Shown here: piece by piece, positions 25,569 to 51,303 of the stretch
Layout: each line of letters begins with the position of its first letter
Position numbering within the stretch: the first letter of the stretch is position 1
Source: an uncultured Gammaproteobacteria bacterium
GTDB taxonomy: Bacteria > Pseudomonadota > Gammaproteobacteria > Eutrophobiales > Eutrophobiaceae
Direction: 5' to 3'
DNA length: 64,000 nucleotides
NCBI GenBank assembly: GCA_943788815.1
Contig: CALSRS010000001.1
Span: 1,363,501 to 1,427,500 of the forward strand
Notes under the pieces: generated by a model
What the model saw: only the letters and a program-made list of their open reading frames with translations
Told to the model about the DNA's origin: nothing
The model's database searches: none
Translations under genes and position numbers: made by a program

Positions 25569-27503
25569 ATGCAATCCGTTTTTTTTAACCGTATCACATT
25601 CGCTCTAGATAAAATCGTTAACCATGCTGTGTTGGCTATACTGATCTTAAGTTTATTTTTAGTTCCCAAATTCAGCCTTGCCCAAAATGAAATACCATCG
25701 GAACTTATACATTACCCAGATTTTGTTTTTTATAACGGCCAGGTATTAACAGCAGATGCTGATCGAGATTTTACTATTGCTGAAGCTGTGGCCGTCCGAG
25801 GTAACCGCATTCTGACCGTTGGCTCATCCGAACAAATCCAAAAGATGATCGGCCCTGCAACCCGGGCGATTGACCTGAATGGAAGGTCTTTAACACCGGG
25901 ATTTATCTACAATGATGGAGATAATTCTGTCCCTGCTGGCGATATTCTCAAGGACACACAATGGAAAGGAACGATACAACCCCGCCTCGGCGGACAAACT
26001 ATTGATCAGGCACTGGCCACGCTATCCTATATCGTTGAGAATGATAGTGAAACCGGGGAACCTATGTTCTTCAACCTACAGGATGCCTGGGCCAGTGTTG
26101 CCAAAGATTCCTGGGGTATTTCTACATTGGATGAAGTAGCTCCGAACAATCCCGTTGCAATCTATCTGGATAGTAGTTATGGCCTGATGAACACAGCCAT
26201 GATTAACCTCGCAATTGAACAGGGGTTCCCAGCTGATCATATTCACCTGGATCGTGATAAAAACGGCAAGCCAACGGGAATGGCCGGTGCACAACTGGTG
26301 GGTTTTGTAGGGCGCGAGGTCAGACCCTGGCCTGATCCAAAATGGTTTGATGATGTGGCAATGCCCGGGGCCGTTGAAACCCTGGCAAAATATGCCCGCC
26401 ACGGTGTCACTGTAGCTACCGGTCATATGAGTGCACTTACCATGACCGTACTGAACCGCTTGTTTCATGAGCAGCCACAAAGCCTCGCTGTGAGGGTCTA
26501 CCCTGGCCTGGATTTTCTAAGGCAGAACCCCAATGGAGAGATGTATCTGAAACGCATGGGAAACCTGGTGGATTTTTCCCTGGTGGATGATCGCGGTCCG
26601 ATGGTGACGATAGTGGGTGCCTCGGTAGGACCACATTCTGGATCGGAAGATGCGGCAGCCGGCCTTTTAACCATTGAACCCAAGAAGAATATCATTCCGG
26701 AAATCAGTCCCAATGCATACGGTTACAATCGCTGGACTGGACAATGGTTTACAAATCTCAGTCAGGGTGACCTGACTGAAGAGCAGATGCGGCAAACAGA
26801 TTATTATAATGTATTGCTAGCCAGGCAACATGGCTGGAATATGACGGGAATCCATAACCGCGGAAGCGAAGGCATACGTCTCGCAATGCAGAACGTTCTT
26901 GAGGCAGAAAACCAGGACAAGCTCTATGTCAAGAAGCTGTGGAGACCCCAGGGTTTCGACCATAATATTGACTGGATGCCCGAGATCTACGAATACTATA
27001 ATGCTCATCCTGAACTAAAAGATCTGATCCGCTTCGGCGTAAACCTCGGAACGCTCATCAGTCAAAGGAATAACGATGCCCTGGGCATAGAGAATGTTCT
27101 TGAGGCCCAGTATGGGGAAGAGGTTTTGCGACGTATCGCTCCACTGAGAACATTGCTGGAGGTGGGTATTCCTTTCCACATAGAGGGCACCGAGCCTGAC
27201 GATGACGAGGATTTCCCCACCTGGTATATCCAGAAAGCGGTAACTCGAATTGATGATCAGGGCAGAATAATTGCTGCCGAAGAGAGCCTGGACAGGGAAT
27301 CAGCCTTTCTGGCGCTTACTCGCTGGGCAGCAAGATTTATCGGCGCTCAAAATGATATGGGGTCCATCCAAGCAGGCATGCTGGCAGACATTGTTATATT
27401 TAATGGTAATTTGTTAGATGAGCCTATCGAGACTATAACCAATCTGAAACCTGTAATGACGCTGGTGGGGGGGAAAGTGGCCTATGAATCTCCGAATTTG
27501 TAG
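25569..27503 (+). CDS. Secreted amidohydrolase-like protein, DGD variant (paralogue b)
   Basis: The 644-residue protein has a signal peptide (about residues 1-39, ending FSLAQ) and the overall plan of YtcJ-type amidohydrolases: N-terminal strands (VFYNGQVLTAD, AVAVRGNRILTVGSS), TIM barrel, and closing strands (GSIQAGMLADIVIFNG). At the end of barrel strand 1, where the family has PGFID-x-HxH, it reads TPGFIYNDGDN (DGD at residues 116-118). Conserved His remain in TGHMS, GIHNRGS and FDHNIDW, and FHIEGTE occupies the strand-8 position. GAGGA precedes the ATG. It follows the small DPETGK protein gene and precedes two cupin genes. The reaction is unknown. The missing HxH makes ordinary hydrolysis uncertain. 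Confidence 0.82.
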   Translation: MQSVFFNRITFALDKIVNHAVLAILILSLFLVPKFSLAQNEIPSELIHYPDFVFYNGQVLTADADRDFTIAEAVAVRGNRILTVGSSEQIQKMIGPATRAIDLNGRSLTPGFIYNDGDNSVPAGDILKDTQWKGTIQPRLGGQTIDQALATLSYIVENDSETGEPMFFNLQDAWASVAKDSWGISTLDEVAPNNPVAIYLDSSYGLMNTAMINLAIEQGFPADHIHLDRDKNGKPTGMAGAQLVGFVGREVRPWPDPKWFDDVAMPGAVETLAKYARHGVTVATGHMSALTMTVLNRLFHEQPQSLAVRVYPGLDFLRQNPNGEMYLKRMGNLVDFSLVDDRGPMVTIVGASVGPHSGSEDAAAGLLTIEPKKNIIPEISPNAYGYNRWTGQWFTNLSQGDLTEEQMRQTDYYNVLLARQHGWNMTGIHNRGSEGIRLAMQNVLEAENQDKLYVKKLWRPQGFDHNIDWMPEIYEYYNAHPELKDLIRFGVNLGTLISQRNNDALGIENVLEAQYGEEVLRRIAPLRTLLEVGIPFHIEGTEPDDDEDFPTWYIQKAVTRIDDQGRIIAAEESLDRESAFLALTRWAARFIGAQNDMGSIQAGMLADIVIFNGNLLDEPIETITNLKPVMTLVGGKVAYESPNL

Positions 27504-27735
27504 GAATATCATTCAAATCTCGCTATAATCGCCGAACAACAACGGCATAGCATGGATTGAGCGTCTATGCCCATTCTTGAGTATATTCTTACTGTATACC
27601 AAATAATGTATCGGAATATTCAAATGTGATTAAAAGATTACAGATGAGTTTGCCAAAGCAATCTATATATAAAATATCTTGAACTAATACAGTTGAGTTG
27701 ATGTAATACAGACAAGTAAATCAGGAGTAAATTGA

Positions 27736-28308: not shown

Positions 28309-28335
28309 TTATAAAGAATTCAGAGGAAATATTTA

Positions 28336-29023: not shown

Positions 29024-30064
29024 ATGCTTAAAAAAATCACCATTTTGATACTATTCTCCTTGCTTGCCGGATGTTCTCAATCATCTAATGATAGCAATGC
29101 AAATCAACCGTCAGGCTCAGCAGAGACAGCAGGTTCGAGTAGCAGTGGAAATATTTTTGCTGGTGAAAACCTGAATTATATCGTCACAACAAATGCAGGT
29201 GGTGGATACGATGCCTATGCTCGGTTGATTGGTCGTTACCTGGTAAAAAAACTCGGTGGAGATAATGTCGTAATCAATAATATCCCGGGTGGGGGCCATA
29301 TTGTTGGTACTAACACATTGTGGAAGAGCAAAGCGGATGGACTAACTATAGGTACCGTCAATGCCGGGTTGATCTACAATCAGCTTATTGGCGTGAAAAC
29401 CCTTCAATTTGATATCAGCAAATTTTCCTGGATAGGAAAGGCCGCCGGCGAGCCTCGGTCACTGGTTATTTCCGAAGATTGCCAGGTACAATCTATGGAG
29501 GAACTCCTGGCCAGTGTTGAAGTCATCAAATTAGCTTCTGCAGGCGTGGGTTCGGCTTCTTATTTAGATACAAAATTACTCGCTGAAGCATTTGATCTCA
29601 ATGTGGATATTATTCCCGGCTTTGAAGGAAACGAAGGCGAGATGTCTATGATGCGTGGCGAGGTATGTGGACAATTTGGCACTACCAGTTCTGTTCAACC
29701 CTTTGTTGATTCGGGTTATGGTCATTTTATTTTAACCGTTGGTGGTGAGGTAGAAGGTGTACCCAATGCCATGGAGTTTGTCTCTACAGACAAGGCCAGG
29801 CGAATCGTGAGTTTAATTGGTGCACTGTCAGAACTGGGTCGGGTCACTGCCGCCCCTCCCGGAACGGATCCTGAAGTCATGGAACGACTCCGTGAAGCCT
29901 ATACCGCTACACTCAACGACCCGGAATTCCTGGCAGAGGCGGAAAAGATGAAATTACCCATCGATGCTGCATCTGGTGACACTGTTGATCAATTGGTAAT
30001 GGCTGCCATGAATCAGCCACAGGAAACCATTGATATCATCGCGGATTCAGTACGTGTTGAATAA
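29024..30064 (+). CDS. tctC: Tripartite tricarboxylate transporter solute-binding lipoprotein, set 1
   Basis: The 346-residue protein is a TctC-type periplasmic binding protein. The signal peptide ends in the lipobox LLAGC, followed by a Ser/Asn-rich tether. The two-lobed fold shows NAGGGYDAYAR (ligand loop), NIPGGGHIVGTN and a DGLTIGT segment, all characteristic of TctC proteins that bind carboxylates. The TctA and TctB genes follow directly, so the set is complete. Members of this family import citrate, terephthalate, protocatechuate or other carboxylic acids. An aromatic or hydroxy acid is likely here. The start is supported by GGGGCGGGA upstream. Confidence 0.88.
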   Translation: MLKKITILILFSLLAGCSQSSNDSNANQPSGSAETAGSSSSGNIFAGENLNYIVTTNAGGGYDAYARLIGRYLVKKLGGDNVVINNIPGGGHIVGTNTLWKSKADGLTIGTVNAGLIYNQLIGVKTLQFDISKFSWIGKAAGEPRSLVISEDCQVQSMEELLASVEVIKLASAGVGSASYLDTKLLAEAFDLNVDIIPGFEGNEGEMSMMRGEVCGQFGTTSSVQPFVDSGYGHFILTVGGEVEGVPNAMEFVSTDKARRIVSLIGALSELGRVTAAPPGTDPEVMERLREAYTATLNDPEFLAEAEKMKLPIDAASGDTVDQLVMAAMNQPQETIDIIADSVRVE

Positions 30065-30101
30065 GATTTCGCTAACTCTGCTTATTGTGTAGAAGAAAAA
30101 T

Positions 30102-31613
30102 ATGGACCTAGGCCCAATCTTTCAGGCACTCATGAATGTGATAGGTTCACCCTATAACATGGGCATGTTATTACTTGCCGTTCCCATAGGAATGTTCTTT
30201 GGTGCCATTCCTGGACTAGGCGGAAAACTGGGTATCGTCATGATGATCCCCTTTGTTTTTGGCATGGACCCCATCGCCGGTGCGATTTTCCTGATTTCCA
30301 TGCACGCGGTGGTGCATACCGGCGGTTCAGTACCGAGTATTTTATTCGGCGTTCCCGGTACCGGGGCCGATGCGGCAACTGTGGTGGATGGACTTCCCAT
30401 GACCCGCAACGGTGAGGCCGGACGGGCCATGGGTGCCTCTTTGGGCGCATCCGGCGTAGGTGGCGTTATTGGTGGTCTGTTTCTAATTTGCATCTTACCG
30501 GTGTTAAGACCAGTCATACTTGCCTTCAGTCCCGCTGAATTTTTCATGCTCGCTATCTTTGGAATTACCTTTATCGCCATGCTGTCTGGTAATTCACTGG
30601 TCAAAGGATTGCTGGTAGGTTTTTTCGGTTTGATGTTGTCATTTGTGAGCCTGGACCCCAATACCGGTGCAGAACGCTATACCTTTGGTCTACTTTTCCT
30701 CTGGGATGGAATGGACATCATTACTGTCATCCTTGCCATGTTTGCCATCCCTGAAATGATTGCCCTTGGGGTAGAAGGCGGTTCCATGTCTCTGGCCGGC
30801 AAACAAAAAGGAACCGCCGGTTACAAGGGAGTCTTCACCGGGTTGCTTGATGTCTTTCGCCACTGGGGACTAACCCTCAGGACATCCATCATGGGCGCCT
30901 TTATTGGCATGATCCCCGGGCTGGGTGGTGATGCCGCCACCTGGATCTGTTATGGCCATGCGATTCAGTCTTCAAAGAACCCGGAAAAATTTGGCAAAGG
31001 TGCAGTCGAAGGTGTGATTGCACCAGAAACTGCAAATAACTCAAAAGAAGGTGGTTCACTTTTACCCACACTCTTCTTTGCCGTACCAGGCTCCTCAGGT
31101 ATGGCAATCTTACTTGGTGCCTTTGTGATGTTAGGTATACAACCCGGTCCCGCCATGGCCCTGACAGGCATGGACATCGTCTGGACATTAATCTGGGCAT
31201 TGATGATTGCAAATATAGTTGCGGTATTCTTCTTCATAGCCTTTGTCCCCATGCTTGGTTATCTAAGTTATGTCAGGGGCAGCCTGCTCATACCTTTTGT
31301 GCTGGCATTGACCTTCCTTGGGGCCTTTTTAGGCCACCGCTCCTGGGAAAACCTTATCGTGTTATTCGTACTGGGTGGATTTGCGTACTTTTTGAAAAAA
31401 TATGGCTGGCCCAGACCACCATTTGTCATTGGCATAATACTCGGTCCAATTGCAGAGGATTCCTATCACAAGGCCTTCCAGTTATGGGGTTACGAATTTC
31501 TACTCCGGCCCGGTGCGTTGATTATGATTGCTCTGATAATTGGCAGTGTCGGCTTTTATATCTGGAAGTCTACCCGACCGAAAAAAGAGGGGGTTGTAGA
31601 GTATGTCGGCTAG
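30102..31613 (+). CDS. tctA: Tripartite tricarboxylate transporter large membrane subunit, set 1
   Basis: The 503-residue protein has about eleven or twelve membrane helices and the TctA repeats: FFGAIPGLGGKLG and later MIPGLGGDAATW, SILFGVPGTGADAATVVDG and FFAVPGSSGMAI, and EGVIAPETANNSKEGG. These conserved Pro-Gly-rich loops mark the family. It starts 37 bases after tctC, and its last 11 bases overlap tctB, so the three form one operon. It uses an ion gradient to move the acid delivered by TctC. Confidence 0.93.
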   Translation: MDLGPIFQALMNVIGSPYNMGMLLLAVPIGMFFGAIPGLGGKLGIVMMIPFVFGMDPIAGAIFLISMHAVVHTGGSVPSILFGVPGTGADAATVVDGLPMTRNGEAGRAMGASLGASGVGGVIGGLFLICILPVLRPVILAFSPAEFFMLAIFGITFIAMLSGNSLVKGLLVGFFGLMLSFVSLDPNTGAERYTFGLLFLWDGMDIITVILAMFAIPEMIALGVEGGSMSLAGKQKGTAGYKGVFTGLLDVFRHWGLTLRTSIMGAFIGMIPGLGGDAATWICYGHAIQSSKNPEKFGKGAVEGVIAPETANNSKEGGSLLPTLFFAVPGSSGMAILLGAFVMLGIQPGPAMALTGMDIVWTLIWALMIANIVAVFFFIAFVPMLGYLSYVRGSLLIPFVLALTFLGAFLGHRSWENLIVLFVLGGFAYFLKKYGWPRPPFVIGIILGPIAEDSYHKAFQLWGYEFLLRPGALIMIALIIGSVGFYIWKSTRPKKEGVVEYVG

Positions 31614-32082
31614 ACTTTTCCTCAACGGCCGGATTATTACAGCGTTTATAATGCTGTTAGTCTTTTCTGTTATGACCATCATGGCATTTGATTTTCCTGC
31701 CAAGGCCAGACTCATGCCGCTAATGTTCGGCATACCAGGAACGATTTTTGGATTACTTCAACTGTTGATGGAAATCAAGCATGCGATGGCAGAGGTACCC
31801 GATGAATCAGCAGAGGCAGTGGAAAAGGCAAAAGAAGAGAAAAAAAATGAAACTCAAATGTTTCTCTGGGTATTCCTTTACTTTATCTTCATCCTGGGTT
31901 TTGGATTTATTTATGCAAGCCCATTCCTGGTGTTTGGTTTCCTCTTCATCGCCAAGAAAGAATCCCTGAAAACTGCTATCATCAGTAGTATTTGCACATT
32001 TATTGTAATATATGGTGTATTTCAGACTTGGTTCCAGATTCCACTATTTGAAGGCCTGATAATAGAGTGGTTAACAGGCTAA
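31603..32082 (+). CDS. tctB: Tripartite tricarboxylate transporter small membrane subunit, set 1
   Basis: The 159-residue protein has four membrane helices with a charged cytoplasmic loop rich in Lys and Glu between the second and third, typical of TctB. The first helices contain FDFPAKARLMPLM, the family's AR.(F/L)P segment. It overlaps tctA by 11 bases. A hairpin with a U-tract follows about 40 bases after the stop. Confidence 0.85.
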   Translation: MSARLFLNGRIITAFIMLLVFSVMTIMAFDFPAKARLMPLMFGIPGTIFGLLQLLMEIKHAMAEVPDESAEAVEKAKEEKKNETQMFLWVFLYFIFILGFGFIYASPFLVFGFLFIAKKESLKTAIISSICTFIVIYGVFQTWFQIPLFEGLIIEWLTG

Positions 32083-32145: not shown

Positions 32146-32207
32146 CATTTTGTGTTTAGCGGTATTATTCTGAAGCTATATACCTATCCTGCCCCAGGAG
32201 GTTGACC

Positions 32208-34052
32208 ATGGTAAAATTTGAATATCGAATCACCCTATTAAGTATTTTTATACCTGTATTTTTTGCCGCTACAGCAAATGCTCAATCCTCATTACTTCTG
32301 AATTATGCAGATCTGGTTCTTTCCAACGGTCAGGTATTGAGTGTTGATGAGAATTTTACAATACATGAAGCAATTGCTGTCAGGGATGGTCGAGTTCTGG
32401 CATTAGGCTCAAGCAATGAAATACTTGCCCTTGCGGGCCCCGATACACAACATGTCGATCTCAACGGCAGGACCGTCACTCCGGGGTATATCTATAACGA
32501 TGGTGACAACTCAGTACCCGGCGGTGATATCTATAAGGACACCATGGTCAAGGGGTGGTTGTCTGGACGGATCCCCGGTGCAAGCCTGGAAGAACTCCTG
32601 GCATCATTGAATAAGCTCACTGAAGAGTCCGATGCTGGTGCACCTATATTCGTCAATATGCCTAAAGCATCACCTCGGGTTGCCGAAGAATGGACCGCTG
32701 ATGACCTGGATGAAATCGCGCCAAGCAATCCCATGGCACTCTTCTATAACGATTCCGTGGTGGTGGTCAATCACGCCATGTTGAACGACGCCTTTGCCGC
32801 AGGCTTACCTAAAGAACATTTCGGCGTAGTCCTTAATGAAGATGGCGAAGCCACCGGACAATTATTTCAACAGGCGGCCGGGTTTATCGGCTGGCAGGTC
32901 CGCCCCTGGCCCAGTCCGGAATATATCGACAGCGCACTGGAACAGACCGTTGCCAGTCTGCTCGGCTATGCCAGCATAGGTGCCACCACCGCCACAGGAC
33001 ACATGAGCGGCCTAACCATCAGTATGCTCAATGAACTCTACCATGATGGCAATCTCGTCATCCGGGTCTATCCGGGTCACGACTTCACCCGGCAAAATCC
33101 ATTTGCCGAACAATATTTAAAACGTGTAGGAAATCTGATTAATTTTTCCCTTACAGATCCGGAACTGGGACCCATGGTAAAGATAGTTGGTGCGGCAACT
33201 GGTCCTGTGGACGATGGTTCCAATAGCCAGTTCGGCATGCTCACTATTGATGAAAAGGAAAACATTGATTTTGAAATTGGTGGTACTCCCCATGGTTTGA
33301 ATAAATGGACCGGGGAAGTCTGGACCGGACTGACCTGGGACGATATGACCGATAGTCAGAAGGCACAAACTGATTTTAATACTATAGACCTGTTACACAA
33401 ATACGGCTGGAACATGAGTGGCAACCATAACATGGGCAGTGCGGCATTACGGACCAACCTCATGGCCATTGATAACTTCGTCAAATCCGGGGTAACACCG
33501 TATTTCAATACACAAAAAGTTGATGCCTTCGATCACAACCTGGTCTGGCATGAATCCAATTATCCCCTACTTGATGAATACAAAGACAATATCGCCATGG
33601 CCTTGAGCACAGAGATATTCGATCAACGAATTTCTGTCACCGGTCGAGAATTACTCGAGTCTCAATACGGTGAGCGTATGCATACCATGCAACCCGTCAA
33701 AACTCTGCTTGATCGCGGATACAATTTACATTTCGAAGGCACAGGCCCCAACAATCACCCCATGTGGATGGTAGAACGCTTTGTTACCCGGATAGATGAC
33801 CAGGGTAAAGTCTGGGGAGCAGACCAGGCCATAGACCGTGCGACAGCATTACGTATGCTGACAATTAACGCAGCACGCTTCATCAGCGAGGAAGATGAAC
33901 TGGGATCGCTGGAGCCCGGCAAATGGGCTGACCTTGTGGTACTCAATGGTAATTTCATGGAAGTGGCTGATAATGAAATCGATGATCTGGATATCGACTT
34001 TACCTTCGTCGGCGGTAAACTGGTTTACGATAAACGATTGTGGGAAGAGTAA
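32208..34052 (+). CDS. Secreted amidohydrolase-like protein, DGD variant (paralogue c)
   Basis: The protein (614 residues) starts at the ATG at 32208, six bases after a perfect AGGAGG. The signal peptide ends near ATANAQ. It is a YtcJ-type amidohydrolase by layout, with TPGYIYNDGDN (DGD at residues 98-100) replacing the HxH motif. Other conserved points are TGHMSGLT, VYPGHDFTRQNPF, GNHNMGS, FDHNLVWHE, FEGTGPNNHP and the closing LGSLEPGKWADLVV. It is closest by eye to the paralogue at 49474-51303 (shared FTRQNPF-EQYLKR). It follows tctCAB set 1 and is 23 bases upstream of a small DPLTGK protein gene. Likely periplasmic. Substrate and reaction unknown. Confidence 0.83.
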   Translation: MVKFEYRITLLSIFIPVFFAATANAQSSLLLNYADLVLSNGQVLSVDENFTIHEAIAVRDGRVLALGSSNEILALAGPDTQHVDLNGRTVTPGYIYNDGDNSVPGGDIYKDTMVKGWLSGRIPGASLEELLASLNKLTEESDAGAPIFVNMPKASPRVAEEWTADDLDEIAPSNPMALFYNDSVVVVNHAMLNDAFAAGLPKEHFGVVLNEDGEATGQLFQQAAGFIGWQVRPWPSPEYIDSALEQTVASLLGYASIGATTATGHMSGLTISMLNELYHDGNLVIRVYPGHDFTRQNPFAEQYLKRVGNLINFSLTDPELGPMVKIVGAATGPVDDGSNSQFGMLTIDEKENIDFEIGGTPHGLNKWTGEVWTGLTWDDMTDSQKAQTDFNTIDLLHKYGWNMSGNHNMGSAALRTNLMAIDNFVKSGVTPYFNTQKVDAFDHNLVWHESNYPLLDEYKDNIAMALSTEIFDQRISVTGRELLESQYGERMHTMQPVKTLLDRGYNLHFEGTGPNNHPMWMVERFVTRIDDQGKVWGADQAIDRATALRMLTINAARFISEEDELGSLEPGKWADLVVLNGNFMEVADNEIDDLDIDFTFVGGKLVYDKRLWEE

Positions 34053-35753: not shown

Positions 35754-37619
35754 TTACTGACCTGCTTCGTAAGCCACTCTCCCACCCACCAGTGTTAATA
35801 CGGTGGGGATCAAGTCGATCTCTTCTATGGGTGCCCCCATGATGTCACCATCAAATACCACCAGGTCTGCCCATTTACCCGCTTCAATCGTTCCCAGTTC
35901 GTCCTCAGCACTCATGAACCTGGCCGCCCAGCGAGTAATAGCAAGTATAGCCTGCTCCCGTGTTAAGGCTTCGTGGGCCGCCACGACCCTACCCTTTCTA
36001 TCTATACGGGTCACTGCATCCTTAACAATTTTCATTGGCTTATTTCGAGGATCAGTACCTTCAATATGAAACGGGATGTTATTGTCCACCAGACTCTTTA
36101 ATGGTGCCATACGTTCCACACCTTCCCAACCATATTGCAATTCTATGACGTCTTCGTATCCCAATATGTCTGCGTCCCGCTGACGCATGGCAGAACCCAG
36201 GCTAACGCCAAACCGTATTTTGTCTTTTAACATGGCTTCGTTTTGTTTATAGAATTCATAATTCTCTGGAACCCAGTCAATATTGTGATCCAGTGCCTGC
36301 GCCCTGGAGAGTTCCGGGACATATTTAACAGGGAGATTTTCTGCATCAATAATGGCCTGCATTGATAATTGTATTCCGCCGCTACCCATATTATGGACAC
36401 CGTTAACGTTATACCCATATTGTCTGGCCAACATCAGATTGTAGTACTCTGTATCTTTGAGTTCTTCCAGAGTCAGGTCCTGTGTTCCCTTACCGGTAAA
36501 CATTTCCGCACTCCATCGATCGTAACCATTGGGATTGCGACCCAGTTCAGGGATGATATTGGTCTTGGGTTCGATGGTCATCAGACTTATTGCGGCATCG
36601 GGTGCCCCGGTATGCGGTCCAACCGCGGTGCCGACGATCTGCACCATGGGCCCCCGCTCATCCACCAGGGCAAAGTCCATGATATTCCCAACACGCGCCA
36701 GGGTACGTTCGGGAAAGGCATTCTGGCGCATGAGATCTAGACCGGGATGTACACGGATTCTCAGGTCACCTGATTTGAATAAGCGGTTGAGGACCAATAC
36801 GGTTAAGCCCGTCATATGACCCGTTGCCGTGGTAATACCCGCTGCCGCATACTCTTGCATCTCTGCTTTGGCAGCATTTATACCAAATTCTTCAATCCAT
36901 TCAGGTGGTGGAAATGGTCGAAGTTCACGACCTACAAAACCGACTGCATTGGCACCAAGTTGACCCGTGGATTCACCCGATGCATCTTTAATCAAATGAA
37001 AATGATTTTGTGGAAAACCTTCATCGACCATCACTTCCAGAAGTTTGCTATTGGCAATTGCATGACAGCAATCTGGTAATAGCATTGTGGGATTCTGGGG
37101 AGACAACTCATCCAGGCGGCTCTTGTCCCAGGTTTCCAACATAGGTCCGGCCCATTGGTCGGACACTTTGAGAAAAATAATCTCACCTTCCAGAGCTTCG
37201 TTTTCAGCAATATAGGTAATAGTCTGTTCTACCTGTTCGATGGTCTCCCCACCGATGCGTCCTTGAATTGTTCCACCCCATTGAGATTCTTTAACCAGAT
37301 CACCACCTGGGATGGCATTATCACCATCAGAATATATAAAACCGGGCGTCACAGATTTTCCTTGCAGATCAATTCGTCTCGTATTGGGTCCTGCCAGGGG
37401 GAGTATGTCGTTGGAATCACCCACTGCCAGAAACTTACCATCGCGAATTGCGACTGCCTCGGCAATGGAAAAATCATTATCTGCGGTAATCACCTTTCCA
37501 TTTATCAAGATAATGTCAGCATATTTCATTATCAATGGTGACTGGGCATTAACACCAAAAGTCACAAACATCAGATTGATGGACAATAACGTGAATATCG
37601 TTTTGGTAAGAAATCTCAT
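35754..37619 (-). CDS. Secreted amidohydrolase-like protein, DGD variant (paralogue d)
   Basis: The 621-residue protein starts at ATG 37619 with GAGGGG upstream; the longer reading from 37640 overlaps that site. The signal peptide ends near GVNAQ. Its YtcJ-type layout has TPGFIYSDGDN (DGD at residues 98-100) in place of the metal HxH. TGHMTGLT, VHPGLDLMRQN, VHNMGSGG, LDHNIDW and FHIEGTDPRNKP are shared with paralogue b at 25569-27503, its closest relative by eye. C-terminal strands are GTIEAGKWADLVVFDGD. It is divergent from tctCAB set 2, 284 bases away. Likely periplasmic, reaction unknown. Confidence 0.83.
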   Translation of the reverse strand: MRFLTKTIFTLLSINLMFVTFGVNAQSPLIMKYADIILINGKVITADNDFSIAEAVAIRDGKFLAVGDSNDILPLAGPNTRRIDLQGKSVTPGFIYSDGDNAIPGGDLVKESQWGGTIQGRIGGETIEQVEQTITYIAENEALEGEIIFLKVSDQWAGPMLETWDKSRLDELSPQNPTMLLPDCCHAIANSKLLEVMVDEGFPQNHFHLIKDASGESTGQLGANAVGFVGRELRPFPPPEWIEEFGINAAKAEMQEYAAAGITTATGHMTGLTVLVLNRLFKSGDLRIRVHPGLDLMRQNAFPERTLARVGNIMDFALVDERGPMVQIVGTAVGPHTGAPDAAISLMTIEPKTNIIPELGRNPNGYDRWSAEMFTGKGTQDLTLEELKDTEYYNLMLARQYGYNVNGVHNMGSGGIQLSMQAIIDAENLPVKYVPELSRAQALDHNIDWVPENYEFYKQNEAMLKDKIRFGVSLGSAMRQRDADILGYEDVIELQYGWEGVERMAPLKSLVDNNIPFHIEGTDPRNKPMKIVKDAVTRIDRKGRVVAAHEALTREQAILAITRWAARFMSAEDELGTIEAGKWADLVVFDGDIMGAPIEEIDLIPTVLTLVGGRVAYEAGQ

Positions 37620-37903
37620 TGATATATCCCCTCGTATCAAATTCTAAATACACATAATGGTATAAACAAAGCCAATTGACCTGTTCTTTTTCAATAAAGT
37701 ATACGCATTTTCATAGTACTGTTAATGATGCCGTAATAATTTCTTTATTAATTCATAATAACTGAAAAATTCAGGTTTTTTTAAGTTTGGGTAGCGGTTT
37801 AAATTGCACCAGTTCGTGTAATTTGACACTATATAGTCGTTAATCTGTGATTTATAGAATCCACGTAATACAATAATATTTAAGATAAAAAAAGAATACA
37901 TTT

Positions 37904-38851: not shown

Positions 38852-38901
38852 CAATTCTGATAAAAAAACAGGGATGGACTTATTAATGCTGGACCGCAAA
38901 T

Positions 38902-40407
38902 ATGATTGATTTATTGCTCAACGCCCTATCGGATATCGCTTCTGTAAAAACACTACTTTTGCTTTTGATGGGTGTAATGTTCGGCCTGATGTTTGGTGTA
39001 ATACCCGGACTGGGTGGCACCACGGCATTGGCTATTCTTATGCCTCTGACCTTTGGAATGACTGCCATCAATGCCTTTGCCATGTCAGGTGGTATTATGG
39101 GCGCGGTTGCCATGGGCGGGGCAATCTCCGCTATCTTGCTTAATACACCGGGCACTGCGCCCAATGCAGCAACCACACTGGATGGTTACCCCATGGCAAA
39201 ACAGGGACGTGCCGCCGAGGCAATTGGAGCTGCTGCAACAGCCTCTCCTCTGGGTGGATTGTTTGGGGTGATGACATTACTTATGGTGTTACCCGTTGCT
39301 AAAGAGCTGATACTACTGTTTGGCCCCCCTGAGTTTTTTCTTCTTGCAGTGTTTGGCCTGGTGACTATCGCACTATCGGATTCCACAAATCTATTACGGG
39401 GTTTAATCTCCGCTGGTGTCGGCCTGATGCTAGCGTTTGTAGGTTATGACACAGTGACTGGAGGTGAACGATTTACCTATGGCTCTGATTACTTATTTGA
39501 TGGTATACCCCTGGTGCCTGCACTGGTAGGTCTATTTGGTGTTACAGAAATGATCCACCTGTCTATCACCGGCGGGACTGTAGCTGGCGATGCGGGTGAG
39601 GTTCGTTTACATGGTGTCGTAAAAGGGATTAAGGCAACTTTAAAAAACTGGAAAATCGTCATTCGAGGATCGCTGATTGGGACTATCATCGGATCCATCC
39701 CTGGTGTCGGTGGTACAGTTGCCACTTTCATTGCCTATTCAACAACCAAACGGGCAGATCCAGATCCTGAATCCTTTGGCACGGGAAGAATCGAAGGTGT
39801 TATTGCGCCCGAATCTGCCAATAATGCCAAGGACAGTGGAGCGCTGTTGCCCACCATTGCATTTGGTATTCCTGGTAGTGCAGAGATGGCGGTATTTCTG
39901 GGGATCCTGGTATTACATGGGATGCAACCTGGGCCTACGATGTTGTTGAACAATGAACGCGAGATCTATGTATTGATCATCGCTCTCACCTTAAGTGCCG
40001 TATTTTCAGCCATTATTGGAATTGCGCTGGTGAGATGGTTGGCCATGATCACTCTGGTAAAAGGCCAAATCCTTGCCCCTCTGGTCATAGCGGTGAGCCT
40101 GGTGGGCACCTATGCGATTGATTCAAGACCCGGTGATGTAGTGATAGCTGCGATCCTGGGTATGGTTGGTTACTTGATGTTGCGTTTTAATTACCCCAGG
40201 CTTCCTTTGGTCATTGCCCTGGTGCTGGGTGAAACGGCAGAACGCGGGTTTCTTCAATCCATGATGATAAGCCAGGGAAACTGGGAAATTTTCATATCCT
40301 CTATTACTTCAATCATCATGGTCCTGTTGATCCTGTTTACTTTGGGATGGTCATTTATCCCTGGCATACTTAAATCACGAAGAGAAGCAAGAGCGAAATC
40401 TAAATAA
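38902..40407 (+). CDS. tctA: Tripartite tricarboxylate transporter large membrane subunit, set 2
   Basis: The 501-residue TctA has FGVIPGLGGTTALAILMPLTFG, AILLNTPGTAPNAATTLDG with YPMAKQGRAAEA, SIPGVGGTVATFIAYS, EGVIAPESANNAKDSG and FGIPGSAEMA, all family repeats. It lies 50 bases after tctC, and its stop overlaps the tctB start (TAATG). It is more typical of the well-studied TctA type than the set 1 protein. Confidence 0.94.
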   Translation: MIDLLLNALSDIASVKTLLLLLMGVMFGLMFGVIPGLGGTTALAILMPLTFGMTAINAFAMSGGIMGAVAMGGAISAILLNTPGTAPNAATTLDGYPMAKQGRAAEAIGAAATASPLGGLFGVMTLLMVLPVAKELILLFGPPEFFLLAVFGLVTIALSDSTNLLRGLISAGVGLMLAFVGYDTVTGGERFTYGSDYLFDGIPLVPALVGLFGVTEMIHLSITGGTVAGDAGEVRLHGVVKGIKATLKNWKIVIRGSLIGTIIGSIPGVGGTVATFIAYSTTKRADPDPESFGTGRIEGVIAPESANNAKDSGALLPTIAFGIPGSAEMAVFLGILVLHGMQPGPTMLLNNEREIYVLIIALTLSAVFSAIIGIALVRWLAMITLVKGQILAPLVIAVSLVGTYAIDSRPGDVVIAAILGMVGYLMLRFNYPRLPLVIALVLGETAERGFLQSMMISQGNWEIFISSITSIIMVLLILFTLGWSFIPGILKSRREARAKSK

Positions 40408-40871
40408 TGGCTAAGACCGCAACAAACACCACGAGTATTGCCCCGGTAGTTTTTATATTTTGTTTTACTGTCGGGTATATCGCTACGGGTTATATATACC
40501 TAGATGAAGAATCAAGACATGTCCCGATACTTACGGGATACGTCACAATCTTCCTGCTAGCCCTTGAGACCTTAAAACGCTTTATGCCCTCTATGGCAGA
40601 GGAACCAAAGGACACATCAGGCATGGAAGCGGTAACGGTAGAGCTTAGCAGAGAGGTTATTGGACTGGCTTATGTGGTTTTTCTGGCAGCCATGATCTAC
40701 GTGTTCGGATTTTATGCGGCCATTCCTGTCTACCTGTTTGTCGCGATTGCATTTCTTGGTAGTCAAACTAAAAAAACTGCAGGAATTTCTGCGATTATCG
40801 CTTCCATAGTTATCTATGTCGTATTTGAGCTGATACTTGAAACACGCCTGTATCAAGGTCTGTTTTTCTAA
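40407..40871 (+). CDS. tctB: Tripartite tricarboxylate transporter small membrane subunit, set 2
   Basis: The 154-residue protein has four membrane helices with an acidic loop after the second (MPSMAEEPKDTSG) and ends in the short helix typical of TctB (ELILETRLYQGLFF). Its ATG overlaps the tctA stop by one base. A bidirectional terminator follows within 30 bases. Confidence 0.85.
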   Translation: MAKTATNTTSIAPVVFIFCFTVGYIATGYIYLDEESRHVPILTGYVTIFLLALETLKRFMPSMAEEPKDTSGMEAVTVELSREVIGLAYVVFLAAMIYVFGFYAAIPVYLFVAIAFLGSQTKKTAGISAIIASIVIYVVFELILETRLYQGLFF

Positions 40872-40959: not shown

Positions 40960-43152
40960 TTACTTGATTTCCGGCTGGTAATCAGGATCTGTATACATAA
41001 TCTTATCTCCCACCACGGTCATGATGGCCTTGTTTAACGGGATCTCCATGGTCGGCACTGAAAAGTAGTCTTTATCAAGTACCGTAAAGTCCGCAAATTT
41101 TCCGGGTTCCAGAGTTCCAGCCAATTCTTCCGTAAACAACCACTCAGACGCCTTGCTGGTGAACATTCGCAATGCGGTTGCCCTGCTCACGGCTTCCTCT
41201 GGCATAACGATTTCGCCCGCCGACAATGGCTCACTCTCATGGCGTACTCGTCGATTCACAAACATATCAAAGGCATTGAAATAGATATCAGGACGCGGCC
41301 GGCTGTATTCCGTCTCACCAACGACATTGACGCCCGACTCTATCAGGGTCTTGGTAGGTGACAGAAATTCAAGCCCTTCGGGTCCATAGCGTTTTACCTG
41401 TTTCAATGACGCAGCAACATCGTTGGGTTGTAATGGGACATAGAAGTTATAGTCCTTCATGATTTCCATGACATCGGGTATCTTGCCAACGGCGCCACCA
41501 TGGGCAAAACCAATTCTCATTTCCCGTATGTCGTCCATCGTCATTCTACCTTCCACCCTGGCCTGTTCTATCCAGGCCATGTGTTTCCTGAAGGCTTCAC
41601 TACCAAAAGAGTGCAGGCTAAAAGGTCGCCAACCGGCCTTCATGGCAGGAATAAGCACATTGGTTATTCGATAGGCCTGGTCATCCCAGCATAACTCACG
41701 GTCCTTTAGCATTTCAGGGCCCGGCAGGTCTTCACCGAAACAGGCCACCTGACGGGAATCTCCTACGCCACCATCGGTAATACCTGTGGGCCAGAACCAG
41801 GGGTTCACATGGGCAGTGCTATGTTGCGCACCCATTTCTGCGACGATCAGATTATTATTCGGGTACATCACCGGGCTACGGAACATCTCGTAGCCAAACC
41901 CCCAACGTACAGGCAGACGTCTATCTTCGCGCAGTATGTCAAAGACCGCAGTCATGGCCGTTCCATATTCCACACTGGAGGAGATCATGGTAAGGCCGGC
42001 TGAGTTATAAAGCTTCAAGGCCTCTCTCATCAAGTTCTTGGTAAAGTCACGAGGCATACGCGGCGGGTTAATGACTCTTTCCCAGGCACCACTTTCCTGA
42101 AATACGCCACCCACAATCCCTCGATCGCCTTCACTACCAATATCACTCAAGCCGGTCATATCATTTGCGGCTTGTTTAAAGCCAGGCCATAACCTGACAG
42201 TCTCTTCCAGACCTTTACGATTTAACAGGATGTTTCGATGACTACAGTGTTGCATGTGGTGAGGAAACATCTCCGCATATCCGCAACCCTGGTCAATATG
42301 GGCATGAAACGAGTCTTCCCTGTCATTTTTAGCATTGTCTGCAAAAAGTTCTTTGAAGGGGTTGTCGTTGCTTGCAATCTCTGCCGCCTCTTTTACATGG
42401 CGCAATGCTGTTGGGACACTTAAGGGCTCCATGGTTGCTTTCCCGTCAGAAGCAAGATTTACCCTGATTACCAGGCCAGGTTGAACGATGGCGCTTGGGC
42501 CTGAACCGCTGCTTAAAGTTGCAGGATTATTCGGTATTACCCTACTTAACTCATCCATAGTGAATACATCTTTATATATCGCATTGGTCAAAGAGCCGAT
42601 ATCGGGATAGATGGTATCTTCATTTTCCACCAATCGAATATGTACCCACTCTCCTTGTTTGGGAGGATACTGACTAACAAATTGGGCAACGGCATTATAG
42701 GTATCCTGAGGATCATCACTGGGCAACAAGATGGCGGTATGTAAGCCGGAGGGTAAGGAATACGCATCGCGCTCTTCTTCATTCAAACGGACGGCATTCA
42801 TGGTGCTTTCAGGATGGACATGGGTCTCGATAATGCCTGGAATGACGGTCTTGCCCTTAACATCGATTATTCTTGTATCTGGGCCTTCAAACTTCAACAT
42901 GTCCTGATTGGAGCCAACAGCAAGAATCTTTTCATCACGGATGGCAATGGCCTGGACGATACTGCCTGGATCAGCAGAGAGCAGTTCCTGGTTATCCATG
43001 GTATAAATGGTACCGTTAATGACTATCGTGTCAGGGTAATTAACCAGTTCTTTTGGAACCGATAAGATATCCTGAGCATAGACAATAGATTGGCAAACAA
43101 ACAGAGCCAAACATAACCATAGCCCCGTGACCCGTTTTTTTTGTTTTTGCAT
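40960..43152 (-). CDS. Secreted amidohydrolase, full-length HxH form (paralogue e)
   Basis: The 730-residue protein has a signal peptide (to about residue 27, IVYAQ), the N-terminal sandwich strands (VINGTIYTMD, AIAIRDEKILAVGS), the metal motif IPGIIETHVHP (His 111 and 113), a long insertion with several His and Cys (GCGYAEMFPHHMQHC), and the C-terminal barrel and composite-site strands (GFAHGGAVGKIPDV, GETEYSRPRPD, GTLEPGKFADFTV). It is the uninterrupted counterpart of the split pair at 983-3152. GGGAG precedes the ATG. It is divergent from the bicupin gene and convergent with tctCAB set 2. Metal-dependent hydrolysis of an amide, ester or lactone in the periplasm is likely. Substrate unknown. 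Confidence 0.87.
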   Translation of the reverse strand: MQKQKKRVTGLWLCLALFVCQSIVYAQDILSVPKELVNYPDTIVINGTIYTMDNQELLSADPGSIVQAIAIRDEKILAVGSNQDMLKFEGPDTRIIDVKGKTVIPGIIETHVHPESTMNAVRLNEEERDAYSLPSGLHTAILLPSDDPQDTYNAVAQFVSQYPPKQGEWVHIRLVENEDTIYPDIGSLTNAIYKDVFTMDELSRVIPNNPATLSSGSGPSAIVQPGLVIRVNLASDGKATMEPLSVPTALRHVKEAAEIASNDNPFKELFADNAKNDREDSFHAHIDQGCGYAEMFPHHMQHCSHRNILLNRKGLEETVRLWPGFKQAANDMTGLSDIGSEGDRGIVGGVFQESGAWERVINPPRMPRDFTKNLMREALKLYNSAGLTMISSSVEYGTAMTAVFDILREDRRLPVRWGFGYEMFRSPVMYPNNNLIVAEMGAQHSTAHVNPWFWPTGITDGGVGDSRQVACFGEDLPGPEMLKDRELCWDDQAYRITNVLIPAMKAGWRPFSLHSFGSEAFRKHMAWIEQARVEGRMTMDDIREMRIGFAHGGAVGKIPDVMEIMKDYNFYVPLQPNDVAASLKQVKRYGPEGLEFLSPTKTLIESGVNVVGETEYSRPRPDIYFNAFDMFVNRRVRHESEPLSAGEIVMPEEAVSRATALRMFTSKASEWLFTEELAGTLEPGKFADFTVLDKDYFSVPTMEIPLNKAIMTVVGDKIMYTDPDYQPEIK

Positions 43153-46266: not shown

Positions 46267-47751
46267 ATGACTCGATTACATCATCTGCGTCGTAACACAT
46301 TACTTTGTATTTCAATCTTTCTGCTTAGCGCTCCCTTTACTCATTCCATTGCACAGTCTTATTTTCCTCCTACGGATATTACCAAGGAAGATACCACGGC
46401 AATGATTAGAAACTTCATGTCCAAACCAGACTTGCAATTAACTGGCGGTGATAAGGGATATGTAGAGGATATCATTCGATTTAACGCCGTCGACATGGAC
46501 TGGGACATCGGCATGTCGGTCCACGAACCTTTGGATGAAACCAAAATACCAAGAGGAGCGGACGGCAAAAAAATTGGCATATTTTTGTTGCATGGTGGCA
46601 GTGGTGATTTTAAGTCTATGCACAGGCAGGCAAAAATACTGGCATCCAAACTCGGCTACAAAGTCATTAGCATGAGTTACCCTGGCAGACATGCCTTTCA
46701 TACCCCTAGCCGTGACTGGCCAGGTCGCAATGTCACGGCCTATGACCACCACAAGTACTCACTGGAGGTGCGAACGCCTATTTGGTTGCAAGACGAATAC
46801 ATCACCCGTGACCAGTACGACATCGTAAAAGATCATAGCCAGCGAGCGCGATATGGGATCCGTACTCTGGCCAAGGCCAAGCCTGGTACCACGTTTTACA
46901 ATCGCATGGCGGGTTGGCCCATGGCGTTTGAAAAAGGTGGCATTGAAGCAATGAAGAAACATTTTCCGGAGGACGAGTATTCCATTTACGTTCATGGACA
47001 TTCAACGGGTGGGCCGTTCACCATGATGCTGTCTCAGCGGGTATCCAATATTCGTGGAATCCTCGCAGTAGAAAATTCTTCCTTTGGTTACATCAACCGC
47101 GCCAAGCACGCCTGGGGGGGAGAACTGGGTAAGATTGATGGCTATGAAAGAGTAGATGAATCCATACAACTGGAGTCACGCACGGATCCCTTTGATGAAC
47201 TCTACATCCGTAGCTGGCGAGATAGCGCCCGGTATCGAGGGCCAGAACTTTTAGGACAGGAAGGGCCAGAGGCCCTGATGCGCCTGCCCATGATCATGGA
47301 AGAGCTACTGGAGGAATGGGGTGATGTGCAAAAGCGAGCATCATTTAAAGCCGAATATCTTGTCACCCATGATATAGAACCTTCCCTAATCGAAGCAGCA
47401 AAAACCACCGCAGGGCGCATGGGTCTGGGGCCAGAAGAAACTGAAGAAATGATCGACCAGTATGTCGGTCTAAAACGGGAACTAAAAGGCAGAGGGGTCA
47501 AGCCCGTTCCGCCCATCATGTTCCAGATTACCGCTTTTAGTCGGGACCACAGCCGGGACGTGTATGAAGAAGTCATCATTCCCCTGTTTAAGGAAATGCA
47601 GCCTGCACCAAAAGTCTCATTGACCCAGTACCCGTTTGGTACCCATGGTTATATGAATGGCGAAGTAATAGAGGACGTAAAACTGGGTGTTGGCCCTGCG
47701 GTATTTCAGCAATGGGATGATGCCATCAAAGGCGGATATTTTCTGGAGTAA
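46267..47751 (+). CDS. Secreted alpha/beta hydrolase
   Basis: The 494-residue protein has a signal peptide (to about residue 30, HSIAQ) and an alpha/beta hydrolase fold. The oxyanion segment is FLLHGGSGD, the nucleophile elbow is HGHSTGGP (Ser246), and FGTHGYMNG near the C-terminus supplies the likely catalytic His. A long lid or cap region lies between. GAGAGGGG precedes the ATG. The elbow GHSTGG is shared with the secreted hydrolase at 53831-55201, but the two differ elsewhere. It is probably a periplasmic or outer-face esterase or related enzyme. Substrate unknown. Confidence 0.78.
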   Translation: MTRLHHLRRNTLLCISIFLLSAPFTHSIAQSYFPPTDITKEDTTAMIRNFMSKPDLQLTGGDKGYVEDIIRFNAVDMDWDIGMSVHEPLDETKIPRGADGKKIGIFLLHGGSGDFKSMHRQAKILASKLGYKVISMSYPGRHAFHTPSRDWPGRNVTAYDHHKYSLEVRTPIWLQDEYITRDQYDIVKDHSQRARYGIRTLAKAKPGTTFYNRMAGWPMAFEKGGIEAMKKHFPEDEYSIYVHGHSTGGPFTMMLSQRVSNIRGILAVENSSFGYINRAKHAWGGELGKIDGYERVDESIQLESRTDPFDELYIRSWRDSARYRGPELLGQEGPEALMRLPMIMEELLEEWGDVQKRASFKAEYLVTHDIEPSLIEAAKTTAGRMGLGPEETEEMIDQYVGLKRELKGRGVKPVPPIMFQITAFSRDHSRDVYEEVIIPLFKEMQPAPKVSLTQYPFGTHGYMNGEVIEDVKLGVGPAVFQQWDDAIKGGYFLE

Positions 47752-48172: not shown

Positions 48173-48193
48173 CACTAAGTGGATTCTTTATTT

Positions 48194-49219
48194 TTACTCA
48201 TACAACGCATCGATAAAACCACTCTCATCAATCTCTCGCATCAGGCTATCGTCATAAAACTGTTCTGCCTGATACTCAGGTGTCATATCGTATGTATCCA
48301 GTATTAGTTGGATTCCCTCCACCGCCGGATAGGGTTTTCTCGGCAAGGCATCGATATACGCGTACATCTGTTTTTGTATATCCGGGTCGGTCACACCGTA
48401 CCATTTATCCAATGCGTGATATACCGTTTCGGGTCGTTTTTTCATAATGGCGATGGCCTCTATGGTTGCCACCAAAAAGCGTTTCGCCATTTCTCGGTTG
48501 TTACCGGTCGCCATCCATGAGGAACTGGCACTAATTCCCGAACAGACAAATGGCAGTCCCCAGTCTTCCATATCAACAAGTGGCGTCAGACCCAGATTCC
48601 GTGCATAGACATCAGGTAATTCGGCCACCATCACAGCATCGTAAAAACCTTCCAGCATCTTGTCTACCCGGTGTTCGTGATTAGGAACCAGGGTAATGTC
48701 CTTGCCCACTTCCCAGCCCATACGATTGGCAAGGATATGTACCGCTGCACCAGTACAACTGGTGTTACCTGTACCAGATATCAACTTGCCTTTTAGATCT
48801 TCAATAGTATCAATTCCTTCCCTGGCATAAATCCACCAGGACAGGTGGTCTCCGGTAGTCCCCAGTATGACCCGGTCATTACCATCACTGATTCGACGAT
48901 TGATCTGGCCAACTCCGCCGCCAGTACTGAGTAATCTGTCAGTATCAGGATCGTCAATGTATTCTGGATTGGGCGTCATGCCATCTCCCGCACCTTTCTC
49001 AGCCGCGCCTGGCGTCATGTATAACTGGATATTCAATCCATACTTGTCAAATATGCCTTCCTCTTCTGCAACTATATAAGGCAGTTTGTTGGTGGACACA
49101 TCTGTTAGCGGAACCAGTAATGGGACATCCTGTGCCAAACTGACACCACTGACGAATAGACATAAATTAACAATAAAAATGAAACGTGCATGTAGACTGA
49201 CAACAGAATATTTATTCAT
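48194..49219 (-). CDS. NMT1/THI5-type ABC transporter solute-binding protein
   Basis: The 341-residue protein has a signal peptide (to about residue 30, VSLAQ) and the NMT1/SsuA-like two-lobed fold: NKLPYIVAEEEGIFDKYGL near the N-terminus, GTTGDHLSWWIYAREGI, LKGKLISGTGNTSCTG and VMVAELPDVYARN. Such proteins deliver sulfonates, nitrogen compounds or aromatic acids to an ABC importer. No permease or ATPase gene is adjacent, so it is an orphan binding protein, possibly sensing or serving a distant transporter. GGGGGAG precedes the ATG at 49219. Confidence 0.82.
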   Translation of the reverse strand: MNKYSVVSLHARFIFIVNLCLFVSGVSLAQDVPLLVPLTDVSTNKLPYIVAEEEGIFDKYGLNIQLYMTPGAAEKGAGDGMTPNPEYIDDPDTDRLLSTGGGVGQINRRISDGNDRVILGTTGDHLSWWIYAREGIDTIEDLKGKLISGTGNTSCTGAAVHILANRMGWEVGKDITLVPNHEHRVDKMLEGFYDAVMVAELPDVYARNLGLTPLVDMEDWGLPFVCSGISASSSWMATGNNREMAKRFLVATIEAIAIMKKRPETVYHALDKWYGVTDPDIQKQMYAYIDALPRKPYPAVEGIQLILDTYDMTPEYQAEQFYDDSLMREIDESGFIDALYE

Positions 49220-49473
49220 TGATACTCCCCCACGGCGAGTTAAAAATTAACTACTTGAAGTTGTTAGTTGAGTATATCGACAGTCCCTATTACCAGCAAA
49301 TCAGTAAAAATTGGCATTTTATCAAGCAATGGAATTATCTTTTTAAGATCAGATGGATAGAAATAATTTATCGACTATCAATCATAGCTTGCACAATTAA
49401 TACATTTTTACGAAACTGAATTTGCACTACTATCTTACAATAACAATTGAATCAATCGCTTATGAGGTCTGAC

Positions 49474-51303
49474 ATGAAGAAGATAACCAATGGTCTGATA
49501 ATAATATTGGCAGGAATTGTATCCACGACGGTCTCTGCCCAATCACAACTGCTAATGAACTATGCTGACATGGTGCTACACAATGGTCAGATACTCACAG
49601 TAGACAGCGAATTTTCAGTTGTTGATGCCATTGCGGTTCGTGATGGAAAAATTCTAGCAACAGGGTCCAACTCAGATATGCTGGCGCTGGCAGGACCGCA
49701 AACAGACAGGGTTGATCTCAGGGGAAGAACTGTCACGCCAGGTTATATATATAACGATGGAGATAATTCAGTACCCGGTGGTGATATCTATAAAGACACA
49801 CTGGTAGACGGCTTTTTATCTGGTCGAATTAAAGGCGAAGAGCTCGAAGAATTATTACGGTCTATCGATGAGGTACTAGGCAAGTCCCATAGCGGTGATC
49901 CTGTCTTTATCAATATGCCCAAAGATTATCCGCTAGAGGCCTCCCATTGGACCGCCGATGATATCGATGAGCTTGCGCCGGACAATCCATTGGCGCTGTT
50001 CTATACCAGTAGTGATGTCAAAGTGAATCACTCCATGTTGGAACGGGCCTTTGCCATGGGTCTACCCCGCGACCATTTCGGCGTAAAAAAAGACGAGGAC
50101 GGTGAGGCCACAGGAGAACTCTTTCACGAGGCCACCGGTTTTGTCGGCTGGCAAGTCAGACCTTATCCAAAACGCGAATATATTGAAGGTGCACTGGAAG
50201 AGGCCAAGGCATCATTTCTTGGTTATCTTAGTTCTGGTGTAACGACCACTACCGGACATATGAGTGGGTTGACCATTAGTATGTTGAATGAATTGTTTCA
50301 TAAAGGTGAATTAACCATGCGGGTCTACCCTGGCCATGACTTCACTCGGCAAAATCCATTTCCTGAACAATACCTCAAACGTATCGGGAATCTTGTGAAT
50401 TTTTCACTTTACGATCCACAAAATGGCCCCATGGTAAAAATTGTGGGTGCCGCACTAGCCTCACTGGACGACGGGCCCAATAGCCCTTCGGGAATCTTGA
50501 CCATACAGCCCAAAGACAAGATCCTGCCGGATCTGGGGGGAACCCCTTACGGCTGGAACAAGTGGACAGGTGAGGCTGTTACAGGCATGTCATGGGAAGA
50601 CCTGAGTGATGAACAAAGATACATGACGGACTGGAACACCATGCGATTACTAAACAAATACGGGTGGAATACCAGTGGTAACCATAACATGGGCAGTGGT
50701 GCCATGAAGGTGGTCCTGGATGCGGTTGAAAATGCCTACTCAGGTGAGATCCTGTTTAATCAATTAAAACCCAATGCCTATGATCATAATGTCATCTGGC
50801 ATGAAGATAACTACCCTATGATTTTAAAATACAATGACAAGCTTAGGTTCGCCCTGAATATTGGAGAAGTATTTGAACCACGTATGGTCAATGGTGTGGC
50901 CGCTTTACATTATGAGTATGAAAATCAACTGGACAATATTCAACCTGTGAAAGACCTGATTGAGCTGGGTATTAATGTCCACTTCGAGGGAACTGATGGT
51001 CACAACCACCCTATGAAAATTATCAAATATGCAGTGACCCGAACTGATGATAATGGCAAGGTAATTGGACCGAACCAGGCGATTGATCGACAAACAGCGC
51101 TACGTATGATCACATCCTATGGCGCCCGATTTATTAATGAAGAGGAAAATCTTGGGTCACTTGAACCTGGCAAATGGGCCGACCTGGTTGTATTAAATGG
51201 AAATTTTCTGGAAGTACCTGATCACGAACTGGAGTTGCTGGATATCGATCTGACATTTGTGGCAGGGAAGCTGGCATACGACGCCAGTCTCTGGACAGAA
51301 TAG
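49474..51303 (+). CDS. Secreted amidohydrolase-like protein, DGD variant (paralogue f)
   Basis: The 609-residue protein starts at ATG 49474, preceded by GAGGTC; earlier in-frame starts at 49447 or 49462 are possible. The signal peptide ends near TVSAQ. It has the YtcJ-type layout with TPGYIYNDGDN (DGD at residues 95-97) in place of HxH. TGHMSGLT, VYPGHDFTRQNPF, GNHNMGSG, YDHNVIWHE and FEGTDGHNHP are shared with paralogue c at 32208-34052, its closest relative by eye. It ends 71 bases before a convergent Rieske gene, with a bidirectional terminator between. Likely periplasmic. Reaction unknown. Confidence 0.83.
   Translation: MKKITNGLIIILAGIVSTTVSAQSQLLMNYADMVLHNGQILTVDSEFSVVDAIAVRDGKILATGSNSDMLALAGPQTDRVDLRGRTVTPGYIYNDGDNSVPGGDIYKDTLVDGFLSGRIKGEELEELLRSIDEVLGKSHSGDPVFINMPKDYPLEASHWTADDIDELAPDNPLALFYTSSDVKVNHSMLERAFAMGLPRDHFGVKKDEDGEATGELFHEATGFVGWQVRPYPKREYIEGALEEAKASFLGYLSSGVTTTTGHMSGLTISMLNELFHKGELTMRVYPGHDFTRQNPFPEQYLKRIGNLVNFSLYDPQNGPMVKIVGAALASLDDGPNSPSGILTIQPKDKILPDLGGTPYGWNKWTGEAVTGMSWEDLSDEQRYMTDWNTMRLLNKYGWNTSGNHNMGSGAMKVVLDAVENAYSGEILFNQLKPNAYDHNVIWHEDNYPMILKYNDKLRFALNIGEVFEPRMVNGVAALHYEYENQLDNIQPVKDLIELGINVHFEGTDGHNHPMKIIKYAVTRTDDNGKVIGPNQAIDRQTALRMITSYGARFINEEENLGSLEPGKWADLVVLNGNFLEVPDHELELLDIDLTFVAGKLAYDASLWTE

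Follow-up and report, generated by a model that had tools for sequence, protein, structure and literature searches.

Asp-x-Asp at the position of the strand-1 His-x-His motif in a conserved subfamily of exported amidohydrolase-like proteins

No signature marks the amidohydrolase superfamily more dependably than the strand-1 His-x-His (HxH) motif, which also serves in annotation. What, then, are amidohydrolase paralogues in which it is replaced? Four such genes (b, c, d and f) lie in a stretch of 64,000 nucleotides, here called the window, from the genome of an uncultured gammaproteobacterium of the Eutrophobiaceae (contig CALSRS010000001.1, positions 1,363,501 to 1,427,500, of assembly GCA_943788815.1). 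An earlier note, made from the DNA alone, had claimed that all four encode Asp-Gly-Asp where relatives in the window have HxH, and had proposed a subfamily with altered metal choice or a new, non-hydrolytic function.

A search of the window with a DNA pattern for G(F/Y)IYxDGDN gave exactly four occurrences, at 25899-25925 (+), 32484-32510 (+), 37317-37343 (-) and 49741-49767 (+), with 0 expected from shuffling. All four paralogues read PG(F/Y)IY(N/S)DGDN, and the search thus confirmed the Asp-Gly-Asp codons that had been reported. The contrasting HxH segments, PGI(I/V)E(T/S)HVHP, were also present as claimed: PGIIETHVHP is encoded within 40960-43152 and PGIVESHVHP within 2397-3152. The genes and codons are the following (coordinates of the window).

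25569..27503, + strand: paralogue b, Asp-x-Asp (DxD) amidohydrolase, 644 amino acids (aa), exported (open reading frame [ORF], Pfam, DNA pattern)
25914..25922, + strand: Asp-Gly-Asp codons at the HxH position of b (DNA pattern, alignments)
32202..34052, + strand: paralogue c, DxD amidohydrolase, 616 aa from TTG; ATG at 32208 is the likelier start
32499..32507, + strand: Asp-Gly-Asp codons of c (DNA pattern)
35754..37640, - strand: paralogue d, DxD amidohydrolase, 628 aa, the DxD protein that was modelled
37320..37328, - strand: Asp105-Gly106-Asp107 codons of d (D105 and D107 invariant in 39 proteins)
49447..51303, + strand: paralogue f, DxD amidohydrolase, 618 aa if read from TTG, though translation probably begins at an internal ATG
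49756..49764, + strand: Asp-Gly-Asp codons of f (DNA pattern)
40960..43152, - strand: paralogue bearing HVH, 730 aa, the control within the window (Pfam, model)

The four ORFs are intact and match the Pfam family Amidohydro_3 (PF07969) with 75-103 bits, against a cut-off of 29.7. Their N termini, judged by eye, are hydrophobic and signal-peptide-like and end at a site of the A-x-A↓Q type, and all four proteins keep TGHM, HN(M/R)GS and DHN, as the earlier note had said. Of the motif itself, both Asp residues proved constant but the residue between them did not, being Ala in 2 of 39 homologous proteins and Ser in the broken gene of locus L059; the motif is therefore properly written D-x-D.

Does DxD really occupy the position of HxH? 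In a MAFFT alignment of 52 DxD and HxH proteins, the two motifs fell into common columns with no gap, and when eight DxD proteins were combined in a profile and aligned to 4dyk, a solved structure, "yndgdns" paired with "NAHGHSA", again without a gap. The earlier claim of a gap-free alignment holds for these two comparisons but not for all: a five-sequence MAFFT alignment opened a two-residue gap within the motif, and hhalign matched the leading Asp of the motif to the leading His and opened a gap after it, which makes the position of the second Asp slightly less certain from sequence alone. The structure models agree with the gap-free pairing. In the model of paralogue d (predicted local distance difference test score [pLDDT], 93.5), strand 1 comprises residues 101-103 and the Asp residues are at 105 and 107; in that of the HVH paralogue (pLDDT, 81), strand 1 comprises residues 107-109 and the His residues are at 111 and 113. 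Both motifs thus stand at +2 and +4 from the end of strand 1, and DGD lies at the C-terminal, metal-facing end of the strand rather than away from it. The model of d has the TIM-barrel amidohydrolase fold, with 3icj/3igh as the best solved matches (Z, 36.8; 451-457 residues aligned; root mean square deviation, ~6 A). No displaced HxH was found near strand 1 in the DxD proteins; the sole recurrent HxH, at residues 213-215, lies ~110 residues downstream, is missing from subgroups c and f and was rejected as a shifted motif.

The four genes belong to a larger group. This genome encodes eight full-length DxD proteins, the four of the window plus a tandem group of four on another contig (one with DAD), and the whole subfamily comprises 39 nonredundant full-length proteins, the majority with 38-51% identity to paralogue d. 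D105 and D107 were invariant in 39 of 39, which answers the question of column conservation in homologues. In the tree, a branch with 100/100 support separates the DxD proteins from the rest, and the profile score drops from ~900 bits for the last DxD protein to ~120 bits for the next relative. DxD proteins were present in all five searched genomes of this genus, with about six to ten copies per genome, and were not found in other genera of the family; at E <= 1e-60, they were absent from 368 other genomes of the class and 397 of the phylum. A scan of 84,980 species genomes gave 22 loci, including one in an alphaproteobacterial metagenome-assembled genome (MAG) with DAD; damaged copies occur in L059 and in an acidobacterial MAG (L060). 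The next-best relatives from the family and phylum yielded no HxD or DxH intermediates: every motif that could be read was HxH (four fetched loci gave no readable motif). Between orthologues of c, d and f, the nonsynonymous divergence (dN) was ~0.09 and the synonymous divergence (dS) was saturated; the HVH paralogue and the transporter genes nearby gave similar values. At each of the D105, D107, H416 and H452 sites, both possible synonymous codons occur. Pseudogene decay is ruled out by purifying selection (c, d, f) and the intact frames of all four genes; the earlier description of the paralogues as full length, exported and not decaying was borne out. By their sequences, the DxD proteins are a real, distinct and conserved subfamily under strong purifying selection, and the claim of a separate subfamily stands on the single clade, the constant DxD and that selection.

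Several public MAG records titled "Klebsiella pneumoniae" (MH-09jul19-253, TrH-03may19-115; L041, L046, L048, L050, L051, L053) carry DxD genes. Their DxD frame lengths and scores match those of the genus-mates G001 and G004, and therefore the organism names look wrong.

If HxH is gone, what is left of the metal site? For BwBSH1, a secreted metallo bile salt hydrolase of the Amidohydro_3 family, six ligands have been predicted (H110, H112, K373, H441, H474 and D583), and each Ala mutant was inactive (PMC13081902). Four of these six canonical ligands are gone in the DxD proteins, and only the His residues of strands 5 and 6 stay: H416 and H452 of d, the equivalents of H441 and H474, are invariant across the 52 DxD and HxH sequences and are the only metal ligands common to all of them. 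At the columns of the bridging carboxy-Lys (K373 of BwBSH1), the DxD proteins have S/A and, one residue on, V/L/T, never Lys. Residue 334 (K/T/Q) was considered for this column and dropped, since the alignment with 3ICJ puts the Lys at columns 339-340. The strand-8 Asp column holds T/S/G; Glu527 is invariant two residues before it, and D/E follows one residue after it in 28 of 39 proteins. Thus, three of the four parts of the canonical binuclear centre that can be checked in sequence (HxH, Lys and strand-8 Asp) were absent, and the strand-5/6 His residues were present. The earlier picture of the metal site was right about DxD at the HxH position but incomplete, since the carboxy-Lys and the strand-8 Asp are lost too. 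The retained residues are encoded in d as follows.

36393..36395, - strand: His416, metal His of strand 5, shared by DxD and HxH proteins
36285..36287, - strand: His452, metal His of strand 6, shared by DxD and HxH proteins
36060..36062, - strand: Glu527, where strand 8 ends, constant throughout the DxD subfamily

The residues near strand ends that never vary are D105, D107, H275, D302, Q306, H416, N417, S420, D451, H452, N453, W456 and E527; D302, at the end of strand 4, aligns with E/D in many HxH relatives. The earlier note had suggested looking for Asp, His and Glu clustered at the barrel mouth, and in the model of d the polar invariants indeed concentrate at the C-terminal ends of the strands, with 16 of 31 falling within 80 of 450 barrel positions (P = 8e-6, an indicative value, the strand-end windows having been set by hand from the model). 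As modelled, this is the pattern that would be expected of a working active site and argues against a purely structural relic.

Most HxH paralogues of this genome also have no bridging Lys, vary at strand 8 and in many cases have lost the Asp there (e.g., L006, L031 and L096). Judged by these columns, their predicted metal centres are non-canonical as well; in this expanded set, keeping HxH does not mean keeping the textbook centre.

The set is large: the genome (3.2 Mb) has 72 stretches matching Amidohydro_3, a very large expansion for its size. Some amidohydrolases are split into an N-terminal half with HxH (~215-273 aa) and a C-terminal half (~475 aa), encoded by adjacent separate ORFs. At least five such pairs occur in the genome, one of them in the window (983-2386 and 2397-3152, - strand; others, L092, L093, L100 and L107), and in several pairs each half starts with its own signal-peptide-like stretch.

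Taken together, the DxD proteins resemble zinc-dependent amidohydrolases but probably have either a rebuilt metal site or a different chemistry. The reading that we prefer, to which we give close to an even chance, is an active exported hydrolase with a single metal site rebuilt from D105, D107, H416 and H452; we infer that a metal is bound, that there is one site, that the reaction is a hydrolysis and what type of substrate is used. According to this reading, b, c, d and f would be enzymes exported to the periplasm or elsewhere, from a derived YtcJ-like (Amidohydro_3) subfamily in which Asp105 and Asp107 of strand 1 take the place of HxH. With His416 of strand 5 and His452 of strand 6, they would form a single 2-Asp/2-His metal site, perhaps assisted by the invariant Glu527, Asp302 and His275, that activates water or a substrate carbonyl for the hydrolysis of a carboxylate-containing compound, and the product may then be imported by the neighbouring tripartite carboxylate transporters. 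It is supported by the invariance of D105, D107, H416 and H452, the use of both synonymous codons at these sites, the equal +2/+4 offset, the 3icj/3igh fold, the concentration of polar invariants at the strand ends, the low dN and the linkage of the c and d clades to TctABC genes in several genomes. Two points weigh against it: K373 and D583 are essential in BwBSH1, so that a centre without both may bind no metal (PMC13081902), and the transporter linkage fails for the tandem b-type clusters and the f clade.

How far known systems fit can be judged from the closest ones. The Pyrococcus YtcJ-like hydrolases (3ICJ, 3IGH; Amidohydro_3), the best structure matches, share the fold, the domain order and the strand-5/6 His residues, but they have HLH where the proteins studied here have DxD, and both the Lys of their GVKLFVDGS and the Asp of their strand-8 STDSP are absent here. 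Membrane (renal) dipeptidases have HxD on strand 1 and so share one Asp with DxD, only one His being replaced. NagA keeps the beta-site His residues, as the DxD proteins do, and its catalytic strand-8 Asp has no strict equivalent in them. The HxH replacement itself has its nearest precedent in NagA of Escherichia coli and Vibrio cholerae, where strand-1 HxH is likewise swapped for two non-His residues and a single metal is bound (PMC6016474). The motif there is QxN, not DxD, and NagA belongs to another family with another substrate; the DxD proteins gave ~19-32 bits with the NCBIfam nagA equivalog model, short of its cut-off of 225.65. BwBSH1 is exported, belongs to Amidohydro_3 and shares the equivalents of H441 and H474, but its essential H110, H112, K373 and D583 are replaced in the DxD proteins (PMC13081902).

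The NagA precedent leads to an explanation that we consider rather unlikely, in which the metal sits at the beta site only (His416, His452 and possibly Asp302) and Asp105 and Asp107 position the substrate or serve as general acid/base. The two beta-site His residues are, after all, the only ligands shared by all DxD and HxH proteins, one metal suffices in the QxN enzymes (PMC6016474), and D302 is invariant and matched by E/D in many HxH relatives. An exchange of two His for two invariant Asp nevertheless looks like a swap of ligands, whereas the Q and N of NagA carry no charge. Moreover, the DxD proteins have not kept the Asp of strand 8 that is the catalytic base in NagA.

Since four of six ligands are gone and the genes adjoin those for solute-binding proteins and transporters, catalysis may instead have been lost altogether, leaving exported proteins that serve as binders or decoys and hold a ligand through DxD contacts, perhaps for the tripartite transporters. 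This we regard as unlikely: each transporter operon comes with a TctC binding protein of its own, the polar invariants, both beta-site His residues included, cluster on the catalytic face, and the retention of multiple copies in five genomes with the same barrel-end residues resembles the divergence of enzymes on substrates. Still less probable is the carboxylate-rich Mg2+ or Ca2+ site of the earlier proposal with a non-hydrolytic reaction such as that of a lyase or isomerase. The invariance of Asp105, Asp107, Asp302 and Glu527 speaks for it, but the two invariant beta-site His residues favour Zn, Mn, Fe or Co. The sequences also showed no lyase signature, and the family and fold matches are hydrolases and deaminases.

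The neighbourhood bears on the substrate. The other features of the window are the following.

27736-28308 and 28336-28926, + strand: two cupin genes between b and a TctC gene
29024..32082, + strand: tripartite tricarboxylate transporter genes TctC, TctA and TctB, immediately upstream of c (linkage kept in L039)
37904..40871, + strand: TctC, TctA and TctB genes, divergent from d (linkage kept in L039)
46267..47751, + strand: exported protein, alpha/beta-hydrolase-like (GHSTGG), encoded beside f-clade genes in other MAGs (motif; no Pfam match)
48194..49219, - strand: NMT1/THI5-like solute-binding protein, divergent from f
53831..55201, + strand: exported protein, alpha/beta-hydrolase-like (GHSTGG), with linkage to the f clade in other MAGs (the L056 homologue matches Abhydrolase_6 marginally)

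Paralogues c and d adjoin the two TctC-TctA-TctB sets, and similar transporter genes flank relatives in L039-L041. Relatives of both alpha/beta-hydrolase-like proteins, which had no direct sequence match in the PDB, follow f-type genes in several other MAGs, and a LigXa-type Rieske oxygenase adjoins f. This neighbourhood suggests extracytoplasmic processing of carboxylate, possibly aromatic, compounds before uptake, the substrate being a guess.

Between a cupin gene and an alpha/beta-hydrolase-like gene lies an EutA-like gene (44654-46153), with no other ethanolamine utilization genes among the scanned neighbours. A TonB-dependent receptor (55490-58252) is present as two ORFs, plug (55490-56851) and barrel (56900-58252); the gene may be broken, and at the same place L058 encodes one 837-aa homologue.

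The fold and the Pfam family of the DxD proteins are known and HxH replacement has a precedent, but conserved DxD with loss of the Lys and the strand-8 Asp appears to be new. The literature searched gave nothing relevant on metal-free or DxD amidohydrolases and no description of an acidic D-x-D at the HxH position combined with loss of the bridging Lys and strand-8 Asp. It is possible, though we put it forward tentatively and somewhat below an even chance, that the proteins represent a new subtype of amidohydrolase metal centre, with Asp-x-Asp of strand 1 plus the strand-5/6 His and no bridging Lys or strand-8 Asp, in a multiplied set of exported enzymes. Since the genome also encodes HxH paralogues, residues can be swapped to test the change. 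A stable DxD subfamily would define another metal-centre subtype or show that the amidohydrolase barrel has been reused without metals.

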